DNA from: Oerskovia enterophila
GTDB taxonomy: Bacteria; Actinomycetota; Actinomycetes; Actinomycetales; Cellulomonadaceae
Length of the DNA stretch: 64,000 bases
Direction: 5' to 3'
Assembly: GCF_001692445.1 (NCBI RefSeq)
Contig: NZ_MAQA01000009.1
Span: forward strand, 1 to 64,000
Below the pieces are notes generated by a model. It did not search any database and was not told the DNA's origin. It saw nothing but the letters and a program-made list of their open reading frames with translations. The position numbers were made by a program, and so were the translations under genes. Shown in pieces: positions 58,924-62,220 of the stretch. Numbering within the stretch: position 1 is the stretch's first letter; every line of letters starts with the position of its first letter.

Positions 58924-59964
58924 CTACTGGGCGTGCTCTCCCTTCAGTTCCCCGTCGCCACACTCGTCGTCTTCGTCATCTTCATCGTCATCATCGCTGT
59001 CGTCACCGTCCGAACCGTTGGCCGGGGACACAGCTGCGTCAATCTGCGCCAGCCACGCGTTGAGCTCCGCAACTGCTTCGTCGAGCGTAAGGTCCATCTG
59101 CGCATCGGCCGCGGCGCGCGCGTAGTCGGTCGGCCAGTGCGGGTGAGCGACCACGACGCACGGCCACGCACGCACAGCGCGACTCAGGGCCTGGGCATCG
59201 CGTGCACGCGCGACGAAGATGTCGACGACGGCTGCGCGCACGACGGCGGGGTCCTGGCCGATCTCGGCGAGGTCGCGAAGCAGCAGCAGGTCGACGACGT
59301 CGCGTGCCCTGTCATTGACCGCAGTCGGCGGGTCGTGGGGGTCAGTGCAGGCGTGGATCTTCTGCGCGACCTGGTAGCGCATCGCAATGCCCACCATCGC
59401 GGTAGGGTCCGGAAGCCCGAGGCCTGCCAATGTAGGCGGCGTGAACGGTTCAGGCTCAGCGCCAGCACTACCTTCGTCAGGCGCGATCTCAACCTGGATC
59501 CTGCGCCACGTCTTCCCCCGGAGCTCGACGACGACGTCGAAGCGGCGCGGCTTGACGACGCGGGCAGGAGCTTGGATGACCTCGACGGCGTCCCGTCGCA
59601 GCGTCAGCGGGCCCCAGGGTTCGGCGAACTCGTCATCGAGCTTGGCAAGGAAGTCATCGATATCACCGCGGATGAGCCCGTCCACGTCCTTGGTCGCGCG
59701 CGTGGGCGCGCTGGGAAGCCGATGCTGCAGCAGAGTACCGCCCTTGAGCAGGAAGAGCGGCTGGCCGGTTGTGTCCAGGGCTCGCTGTAGCGCCGCGATG
59801 ACAACTGTGGATGCAACGAGCCAGGCCAGGCGGCCGCCGCGGTCTCCCAGGCGCTTCTCGGCCTGCAGGAGCCAAGAGTTGAGCACTGTGACCGACGCGG
59901 GTTCCTTGTTCTTGGCAGGCAGTTCGGCAAGACCTTGGGGCAGATCAGCGCTCTGCTGTGTCAC
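58924..59964 (-). CDS. AbiEii/AbiGii-type nucleotidyltransferase toxin
   Basis: Predicted toxin of a type IV toxin/antitoxin pair. It has 346 residues. The nucleotidyltransferase motif is LLKGGTLLQHRL (74-76) with TKDVDGLI (91-98), the DxD acidic pair. The rest is helical. It ends in an unusual acidic tail, about 25 residues mostly Asp/Glu (DGDDSDDDDEDDEDDE). GTG 59964 overlaps the AbiEi-like gene by 20 bases, consistent with coupled translation. Family members act as nucleotide transferases and stop growth. The codon use is a little less GC-biased than in its neighbours, which may indicate acquisition. Confidence 0.86.
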   Translation of the reverse strand: MTQQSADLPQGLAELPAKNKEPASVTVLNSWLLQAEKRLGDRGGRLAWLVASTVVIAALQRALDTTGQPLFLLKGGTLLQHRLPSAPTRATKDVDGLIRGDIDDFLAKLDDEFAEPWGPLTLRRDAVEVIQAPARVVKPRRFDVVVELRGKTWRRIQVEIAPDEGSAGAEPEPFTPPTLAGLGLPDPTAMVGIAMRYQVAQKIHACTDPHDPPTAVNDRARDVVDLLLLRDLAEIGQDPAVVRAAVVDIFVARARDAQALSRAVRAWPCVVVAHPHWPTDYARAAADAQMDLTLDEAVAELNAWLAQIDAAVSPANGSDGDDSDDDDEDDEDDECGDGELKGEHAQ

Positions 59965-60511
59965 GGTTCGCCAGTCTCCTTCGCAGATCAGCGCTCTCGC
60001 CTGGGGTGACGCGCCCTGTCTCGCGGGCCGCCGTCAGGGCCTGGCGTAGAAGGTAGGTCGGGGTGCCCGTGTCGATGCACTGGGCGATCGCTGTCGCGGC
60101 TGTCACCGTCGGGATCTGTTCGAACCATCCGATCTGGCGGGTATCGAGGTCTTGGTAGTGGACCTCGATCCCGTCGGCGCCGGCACGCCGGATTCGGCAA
60201 CGCCTGGGCACGGTGACGTGGATCCTGTCGGGGTTGACATCGCTGAGCCCGTAGAGATCGAGGGCGGTCTCGTGAGACAACGCGGCTTCGTCGACACCAG
60301 TCCACAGCACTGCCAGATGCAGGTCGTCGTACTCGCTCACCGGGACGACGGTCACACGGTAGACGCCATGAGCGACCTTCTCCAGGTAGCCGCGCGCGAC
60401 GAGCTGCTTGAGCGCGTGCGGGCTGTGCCCTTCGCGCAGCGCGTCGACGCGGCGGACGAACCCGTGGCTGTCGAAAGCCCCCTCGAGCAGGCGGTCGCGA
60501 GCGTGCGGCAT
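59945..60511 (-). CDS. AbiEi-type antitoxin/repressor
   Basis: Predicted antitoxin of 188 residues. The N-terminal winged helix (MPHARDRLLEG, then VRRVDALREGHSPHALKQLVARGYLEKVAHGVYRV) matches the AbiEi family, and the C-terminal half is the AbiEi antitoxin domain (LSHETALDLYGLSDVNP and IHVTVP). It represses its own operon in known systems. ATG 60511 lies directly at the right end of the palindrome at 60511-60546 and has no Shine-Dalgarno. It overlaps the toxin gene by 20 bases. Confidence 0.87.
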   Translation of the reverse strand: MPHARDRLLEGAFDSHGFVRRVDALREGHSPHALKQLVARGYLEKVAHGVYRVTVVPVSEYDDLHLAVLWTGVDEAALSHETALDLYGLSDVNPDRIHVTVPRRCRIRRAGADGIEVHYQDLDTRQIGWFEQIPTVTAATAIAQCIDTGTPTYLLRQALTAARETGRVTPGESADLRRRLANRDTAER

Positions 60512-60546
60512 GTCAAAAGGGTACCGCCAGTGGCACCCTTTTGACA
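60511..60546 (-). promoter_or_regulatory. palindromic operator at the start of the abiEi-like gene
   Basis: TGTCAAAAGGGT (60511-60522) and ACCCTTTTGACA (60535-60546) are perfectly inverted. The last base of the palindrome is the A of the ATG. A site overlapping the start codon fits autorepression by an AbiEi-type protein. Confidence 0.75.
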
Positions 60547-60909
60547 TCGTGTGGCGACGAGGCATCGCCAACGGGGGCTTGGCCGAGGAATGTGACACAG
60601 GTCACCTGTCTCAAACGAGCCCGCTCTGCCGAAGGTCCACCCTCCGACCCCGGACGCGCCGGAGGCGGCCCGTCGCGTGAGCGCCCCCCTGCAGCGCTCA
60701 CACCACGGGCCGCCTCCGACCCTCGCGCTCGTCACGACCCCCATCGACGACCGAGCACTCACATGACTCAGAGGAGGGGCCTCCTCCTTTGATACAGAAC
60801 GTCGACGTGACCCGCATCACATTCTGACATCGGGTGTCACCATCCGCAGCGGAGCGGCCCGTGCCGAGCGCCACGAGGCACCCTGCACGGGCCGTCCGGT
60901 CGGCCGCGC
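60547..60909. other. 363-base intergenic region between the toxin/antitoxin locus and the DyP gene
   Basis: No gene is seen. It contains the hairpin at 60661-60717, a short palindrome with a following T-run (AGGAGGGGCCTCCTCCTTT near 60775), and a divergent PR1-like trace at about 60790-60835 on the minus strand (TGTCAGAA...TTCTGTA). Confidence 0.5.
60661..60717. terminator. two-stem hairpin terminator downstream of the DyP gene
   Basis: GGAGGCGGCCCGT (60661-60673) pairs exactly with 60705-60717 and GTGAGCGC (60677-60684) pairs with 60694-60701, with a small internal loop. It is the probable end signal for the copper operon on the minus strand. Confidence 0.7.
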
Positions 60910-62220
60910 TCAGCCCAGCAGCGCCTGTCCCAGGAACTCGCCCTCGGCGCAGCCCGGAGGCACCGCGAAGACCGCGGAACCGATCGGCGTCGTCCACTCG
61001 TTGAGCAGGTCCACCTCGTCGAGCCGCCGCTGGACCGGCACGAACTGCCGGTCGACGTCCGCCTGGAACGTCACGAACACCAGGCCCGAGCTGCTGAGCG
61101 CGCCAGGGTCCGTCGCGACGTCGGGTGCGTCGTCGTAGCTGTACGCACGCCGCAGGAACCGCTCGGCCGGGTCGCTGGTCCGCGCCCTCCGCACGTGCGC
61201 CGCCGGCCCGATCACGGTCAACCCGTGCGGACCGACCGCCTCGAGGTCCGGCTCGTCGTGCTCCTTCTCGCCCGTGAGCGGCGCGCCGTCGGCGAGGCGA
61301 CGCCCCATGACGGCCTCGCGCGTGGAACGGTCGACCTCGTCCCACGTGTCGAGCTCCATGCGGATGCGCCGCACGACCATCGACGTGCCGCCCGCGAGCC
61401 ACCCGTCCGTGCCGTCCGACCACACGAGCGGGGCGTCCGCGACGGGGTCCAGGTTCCGGGTCCCGTCGATCTGCCCCATGAGGTTGCGCATGGTCCGGCC
61501 CGCGGGCTCGCTCCCGACCGACCGCCGGAAGCCCTTCTGCAGCCACCGCACCGACGCGAAGTCCCGCGCCTCGCGGAGCAGCATCCGGACCGCGTGCGAG
61601 ACCGTGACCTCGTCGTCGGCGCAGACCTGGAGCACCAGGTCACCGTCGTTCCAGCGGTCCTCGAGCCGGTCCACGGCGAACGCCGGCAGCGGACCCAGCC
61701 AGGCGGGACGCCGGTCGTCGAGGCCCGCGGCCGTGAAGACCGCGGGCCCGTAGCCCACCGTGACCGTGAGGCGCGCGGGCACCTCGGCGAGCTCGGGCTC
61801 GGTGTCGGTCAGGCCCGGGCGCCCCTCGGTGAGACGCACGACGTCGTCGGTCCAGATCCGCATGAGCCGCACGAGCGCGTCCCGGTCGGTGCCGGGGGCG
61901 AGGTTCAGCGCGACGAGCGTCAGGTACGCCTGGGGAGGCGTCTCGACGCCCGCCTGGCGCGGGCCGTGGAAGGGCACGCGCAGGTCACCGTGCAGCGCGA
62001 GGGCTCCTGCGGTGCCCGACGACGCCGCTCCCGTCGCGGGGGCCGTGGCCCTCCCGGCCCACGCACCTCCCGCACCGGCGACCGCGACCGCACCCGCGGC
62101 GGCCCCGCCGACCAGGAACGCCCGGCGCGAGACCCTGGCCCGCCGGGTGGGGTCGGCGGGCGGCATCGGTTCCTGATCGGGGGCGGAACCGAGGCCCGTA
62201 CGGGACGCGCGGTCAGCCAT
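60910..62220 (-). CDS. Tat-exported DyP-type peroxidase (EfeB-like)
   Basis: A 436-residue haem protein. The N-terminus has the twin-arginine signal VSRRAFLVGGAAAG (31-43). The DyP signature is NLMGQIDGTRNL (GxxDG), with the proximal histidine expected near the C-terminal half in HVRRARTSDPAERFL. The family removes electrons from dyes or releases iron from haem. It is the third gene of a copper-linked set (CopC, PCu(A)C, DyP) and overlaps the PCu(A)C gene by eight bases. Homologues often accompany iron uptake (EfeUOB), but EfeU and EfeO are not in the window. Confidence 0.9.
   Translation of the reverse strand: MADRASRTGLGSAPDQEPMPPADPTRRARVSRRAFLVGGAAAGAVAVAGAGGAWAGRATAPATGAASSGTAGALALHGDLRVPFHGPRQAGVETPPQAYLTLVALNLAPGTDRDALVRLMRIWTDDVVRLTEGRPGLTDTEPELAEVPARLTVTVGYGPAVFTAAGLDDRRPAWLGPLPAFAVDRLEDRWNDGDLVLQVCADDEVTVSHAVRMLLREARDFASVRWLQKGFRRSVGSEPAGRTMRNLMGQIDGTRNLDPVADAPLVWSDGTDGWLAGGTSMVVRRIRMELDTWDEVDRSTREAVMGRRLADGAPLTGEKEHDEPDLEAVGPHGLTVIGPAAHVRRARTSDPAERFLRRAYSYDDAPDVATDPGALSSSGLVFVTFQADVDRQFVPVQRRLDEVDLLNEWTTPIGSAVFAVPPGCAEGEFLGQALLG

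Follow-up and report, generated by a model that had tools for sequence, protein, structure and literature searches.

How does a toxin–antitoxin operon control itself when the putative operator of the operon reaches into the start codon of its first gene? A gene pair of Oerskovia enterophila poses this question within the stretch of DNA that we analyzed (64 kb, hereafter the window). The sequence of the locus and a survey of its homologues make it very likely that the pair is an autoregulated AbiE/MenAT3-type toxin–antitoxin operon in which operator, promoter and start codon are fused.

Organization and family of the gene pair

The antitoxin gene comes first in this bicistronic pair and the toxin gene second, and the two reading frames share 20 bases, 59945–59964 (Table 1). 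The assignment to the AbiE type, already made in a preliminary description of the locus, is borne out by Pfam, PADLOC and PDB matches. The toxin scores 50.1 bits with PF08843 (AbiEii; cut-off 22.5) and the antitoxin 38.2 bits with PF13338 (AbiEi_4; cut-off 25), while PADLOC identifies the two as AbiEii (1.7e-134) and AbiEi (1.7e-66), respectively. The best PDB match of the toxin is Rv1045 (MenT3/TglT; 5.8e-34), which covers toxin residues 8–312. The overall layout is similar to that of MenAT3 (Rv1044–Rv1045, TakA–TglT) of M. tuberculosis, with a homologous toxin, a wHTH antitoxin upstream and the nucleotidyltransferase motifs; the toxin differs in carrying an acidic tail, in having Thr91 in place of Ser78 and in its modest identity (33%) to a mycobacterial MenT3 orthologue.

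All of the MenT3/TglT catalytic motifs, KGG(S/T), KDxD, QK and NDRxxDxVDL, are found in the toxin. When the motif residues are lined up with the mycobacterial orthologue by alignment, K74, G75, G76, T77, D93, D95, Q201, K202, N217, D218, R219, D222 and D225 are kept in 13 of 13 aligned toxins. Ser78 of MenT3 is the phosphorylation site used in neutralization (PMC7205606), and the threonine that takes its position, present in all 13 aligned toxins, differs from serine yet is phosphorylatable. By analogy with the characterized system, the predicted toxin, with its MenT-type motifs kept, probably arrests translation through nucleotide addition to tRNA 3′ ends, and the antitoxin probably restrains it in the manner of MenA3, by phosphorylation at Thr91.

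Table 1 Coordinates of the gene pair and of predicted elements in the window
Feature	Position	Strand	Basis or remark
AbiEi (MenA3-like) antitoxin, 188 aa, N-terminal wHTH (PF13338)	59945..60511	-	ATG start at 60511
AbiEii (MenT3-like) nucleotidyltransferase toxin, 346 aa	58924..59964	-	GTG start at 59964
C-terminal acidic tail, toxin residues 313–346	58927..59028	-	Genus-specific, predicted disordered
Palindromic operator (predicted), 13-bp perfect arms	60510..60547		Covers first two bases of antitoxin ATG
Predicted −10 box TACCCT, −12 to −7 from A of ATG	60518..60523	-	Sequence and position of TANNNT in homologues
Predicted transcription start, A of ATG (leaderless mRNA)	60511	-	−10 spacing, no Shine-Dalgarno, start-codon constraint in homologues

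A palindrome at the antitoxin start codon

The antitoxin ATG (minus strand, 60511–60509) is overlapped at its A and T by a perfect inverted repeat. The preliminary description had correctly placed such a repeat at the ATG, but its 12 bases at 60511–60546 miss one base at either end: the arms, ATGTCAAAAGGGT and ACCCTTTTGACAT, pair perfectly over 13 bp around a 12-nt spacer, for a total of 38 bp. The exact pattern is present as a single copy in the window and in none of 100 shuffles, and a core pattern shorter than the full site has one copy in the 4.65-Mb genome, so that autoregulation is expected and not a regulon. The window contains about a dozen loci with inverted repeats whose 13-bp arms are perfect, and many of these look like terminators. 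Arm length by itself is therefore unremarkable and was dropped as evidence; what distinguishes the palindrome is its position and its conservation.

Two other elements lie upstream. A 25-nt inverted repeat (92%) at 60660–60718, kept in congeners, probably terminates the minus-strand gene that lies upstream, at 60910–62220. A CRP-like sequence, TGTGACACAGGTCACC, at 60590–60607 was rejected as a regulatory element because congeners lack it.

A putative promoter inside the palindrome and a predicted leaderless start

The predicted −10 box sits inside the right arm of the palindrome and conforms to TANNNT, a motif that is rare in the window (2.6e-4 per base, both strands). In mycobacteria TANNNT serves as the −10 motif, 7–12 bp upstream of the start site, and no conserved −35 motif was identified for mycobacterial promoters (PMC3898074). 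A sigma-70 promoter scan returned no promoter and no −35 box. TACCCT lies 7–12 bp ahead of the start codon. Upstream of this ATG no Shine-Dalgarno sequence is visible, in agreement with the preliminary description. Similarly, the leaderless toxin–antitoxin mRNAs of mycobacteria combine a TANNNT −10 box with a start at the AUG, and most M. tuberculosis toxin–antitoxin pairs (32 of 37) are leaderless (PMC3898074); the passages of that study consulted do not describe operator symmetry fused to a leaderless start.

The palindrome could instead act as a hairpin in an mRNA translated from further upstream, since the antitoxin frame of O. enterophila is open there, with an in-frame ATG at 60547 and an in-frame GTG at 60598. 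However, in three congeners (L003–L005) the equivalent ATG is preceded by no other in-frame start, which favors 60511 as the start. In many homologues, moreover, an in-frame stop occupies −12 to −10, often as the TAG or TAA of the −10 box itself, making an earlier start impossible in those homologues. The RefSeq start of the antitoxin encoded on an M. branderi plasmid is already the ATG at the operator edge, and a hairpin would leave the TANNNT at −12 without a role. We thus consider this alternative extremely improbable and take the palindrome to be a DNA operator in what follows.

Conservation of the putative operator and −10 box among homologues

Homologues were collected from the family, the order, the class, named genomes and Mycobacterium; in the named-genome contigs an alignment-based scan found 80 relatives where a single-protein scan found none. 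Clustering at 80% identity left 109 antitoxins, 105 of them with a usable start. A palindrome with a score of at least 8 that ends within three bases of the start is found in 53 of these 105 non-redundant homologues, a count somewhat inflated because the best start was picked per locus, as compared with 0 of 525 dinucleotide shuffles. The non-redundant homologues with a single in-frame ATG or GTG (n = 42) are free of that bias, and TANNNT stands at exactly −12 in 28 of them, versus 0–5 at any other offset. Among the 53 palindrome-bearing homologues, it stands at −12 in 39 and at −13 in 9.

The bases of the arms vary across lineages while their pairing is kept, for instance at −13, −15, −10, −9 and −8, with four different base pairs at −13 and two at −15. 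Position −12 is always T and is paired in only 16 of 39 homologues; positions −11, −7 and −3 are paired in 35–39. Pairing is thus loosened at −12, where the −10 box requires a T, and this pattern suggests a trade-off between promoter and operator.

Roughly one non-redundant homologue in two has no strong palindrome exactly at its start. A sizeable fraction of them carry a Shine-Dalgarno leader, with the palindrome further upstream (L012, L078, L097 and L123), and others belong to more distant antitoxin groups. The predicted leaderless operator design is therefore common but not universal. The layout recurs in many relatives, including close counterparts of MenAT3. Its conservation in some 50 lineages and the fixed place of the predicted −10 box at −12 lend strong support, at the level of sequence, to the earlier proposal of a leaderless mRNA with an operator over its start. 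That proposal also held that a bound repressor would block initiation directly. Such an effect is plausible, but the main block is expected at the initiation of transcription and not of translation, since the palindrome spans the region from the −10 box to +2.

Two side observations concern decaying copies. In two 3.3-Mb mycobacterial genomes (L176 and L177), a related antitoxin–toxin pair is broken, and the operator beside its ATG is recognizable and degenerating. Within the family, several toxins of L016–L019 are disrupted by frameshifts or stops and the antitoxin frame is intact, a pattern suggesting that the toxin is often lost first.

Proposed mode of autoregulation

In the mechanism that we favor, the antitoxin, probably dimeric, would bind the palindrome through its winged helix. 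It would then occlude the −10 box together with the transcription start and the beginning of the ATG, and so keep the operon off as long as antitoxin is plentiful. When antitoxin falls, RNA polymerase would start at the A of the ATG, as the sequence and its conservation predict, and produce a leaderless mRNA. The antitoxin would be translated from the 5′ AUG of this message and the toxin from its overlapping GTG, the overlap being observed and the translational coupling presumed.

Known relatives offer precedent for such autorepression. AbiE of Streptococcus agalactiae shares the antitoxin–toxin order, a wHTH autorepressor and an AbiEii nucleotidyltransferase toxin, and in the M. tuberculosis pair Rv2827c–Rv2826c the COG5340 antitoxin acts on repeats that precede the start codon to repress the operon that encodes it (PMC7319586). 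The sites differ, however: in S. agalactiae the AbiEi site is a pair of 23-bp inverted repeats separated by 3 bp, and Rv2827c recognizes, with negative cooperativity, four 23-bp repeats spread over 131 bp, whereas the O. enterophila locus has one palindrome that overlaps the predicted −10 box, the predicted transcription start and the ATG.

Autorepression is proven for both AbiEi and Rv2827c (PMC7319586), which also bears on whether some regulator other than the adjacent antitoxin binds the palindrome. This possibility draws on one study in which probes from the DNA preceding the annotated Rv1044 start were not bound by Rv1044; neither repeats nor promoter activity were found in that region (PMC7319586). 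Those negative probes probably left the site out, as discussed below. In addition, the half-site differs by antitoxin subgroup and does so across genera (TGTCAAAA, TGGCAATA, TGTGCnnAA and TGGCACAAC), as would be the case for a cognate site, and the genome holds a single copy of the palindrome. A different regulator is thus very unlikely, and the adjacent antitoxin is our candidate repressor. Repression of an rv1044 promoter fusion by Rv1044 (PMC7205606) is counted as support for autoregulation.

Mycobacterial MenAT3 and the start of rv1044

The papers on MenAT3 consulted here do not report an operator for the M. tuberculosis system. A search of Mycobacterium with an orthologous antitoxin covered 383 members of the genus with at least 99% completeness, and no M. 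tuberculosis locus was among the matches. A mycobacterial toxin (L167) aligns with Rv1045 over nearly its full length with 575.8 bits. The palindrome-at-ATG layout is shared by these orthologues: among the orthologous antitoxin genes, the nine in which the ATG is retained (L193–L201) all have a full or near palindrome, TGTGC...CGTATC-N5-GATACG...GCACA, that ends at the A of the ATG.

A comparison with the published numbering of Rv1044 locates this operator relative to the annotated gene. Seven residues of Rv1044 mentioned in PMC7205606 (G71, E72, D74, S93, H98, P105 and D155) fit the orthologues at one offset only, namely 13, with seven of seven residues in agreement in eight orthologues and six of seven in the ninth. 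The start of the published numbering therefore precedes the operator ATG by 13 codons (39 nt), at a position occupied by TTG in eight of the nine orthologues. In L193, L197 and L201 a stop codon in the left arm interrupts this upstream frame, and L196 has no start there. Counted from the operator ATG, the mycobacterial antitoxins have masses of about 20.7–21.2 kDa; one of them with 13 extra codons comes to 22.2 kDa, near the 22.5 kDa quoted for MenA3 (PMC11375011). On the strength of the residue offset and the extended mass, the annotated rv1044 gene probably contains the operator, which suggests that its start codon is misannotated.

Such a position would explain why the probes of PMC7319586 came up empty. 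A published puzzle, that Rv1044 binds DNA and yet nothing is found upstream of its annotated start, would then have a simple explanation. The re-annotation fits less easily with the finding that a 500-bp rv1044 upstream promoter fusion is repressed by Rv1044 in M. smegmatis (PMC7205606). Judged on these comparisons, we consider it likely that in a large clade of MenA3-like AbiEi antitoxins of Actinobacteria one palindrome serves as operator, −10 box, transcription start and start codon, and that rv1044 follows the same plan, hidden by an annotation that begins 13 codons early. If so, the Rv1044 of published work carries 13 non-native residues. Annotated start codons in other family members could likewise be corrected with the help of the operator sequence. 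The palindrome also provides a precise predicted operator for toxin–antitoxin systems of a widespread, tRNA-modifying class.

Genomic context and spread

Collinearity with the window extends over 4–6 kb in congeners, among them Oerskovia turbata (L026), and three genomes of the same genus lack the pair. Cellulosimicrobium has only a 1.5-kb module in common with the window, and the M. branderi copy of the module is plasmid-borne. From this patchy presence within the genus, the collinearity of its carriers and the restriction of the similarity to the module in Cellulosimicrobium, we infer that the module is accessory, passed on vertically within part of the genus and located at other sites elsewhere.

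A genus-specific acidic tail on the toxin

The toxin ends, as the preliminary description had noted, in a mostly acidic segment: 17 of its last 33 residues are D or E, and 11 of them form an uninterrupted run. The view that such a tail is unusual for the family also holds, since among 114 toxins a strongly acidic tail (24–33 residues, 10–17 D/E) is confined to O. enterophila and its congeners. The tail lies outside the conserved family fold, and its residues have pLDDT values below 50 in an AlphaFold model of moderate confidence (mean pLDDT 67). It evolves fast, differing at most positions between O. enterophila and the congeners, and is rich in GAY/GAR codons, whose low complexity would suit replication slippage.

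Whether the tail regulates the toxin, as an active-site mask, a nucleic-acid mimic, or a tag for degradation or binding, can be weighed against these features. Four congeners keep the acidity though not the sequence, which may reflect some selection for acidity, and the run at 58964–58995 is the only place in the whole 4.65-Mb genome with at least nine consecutive D/E codons. On the other hand, the tail is absent from all other genera sampled, including Cellulosimicrobium-like toxins of 71% identity, and both the slippage-prone codons and the predicted disorder speak against a regulatory role, which we therefore regard as unlikely; masking of the active site or mimicry of nucleic acid, as first proposed, is speculation. 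The tail is probably a recent, disordered, genus-level addition that is not needed for toxicity. An unrelated C-terminal extension of 41–42 residues (VGLLDDEARA...RGRSPR) is found on the toxins of two other actinobacterial assemblies (L040 and L041).
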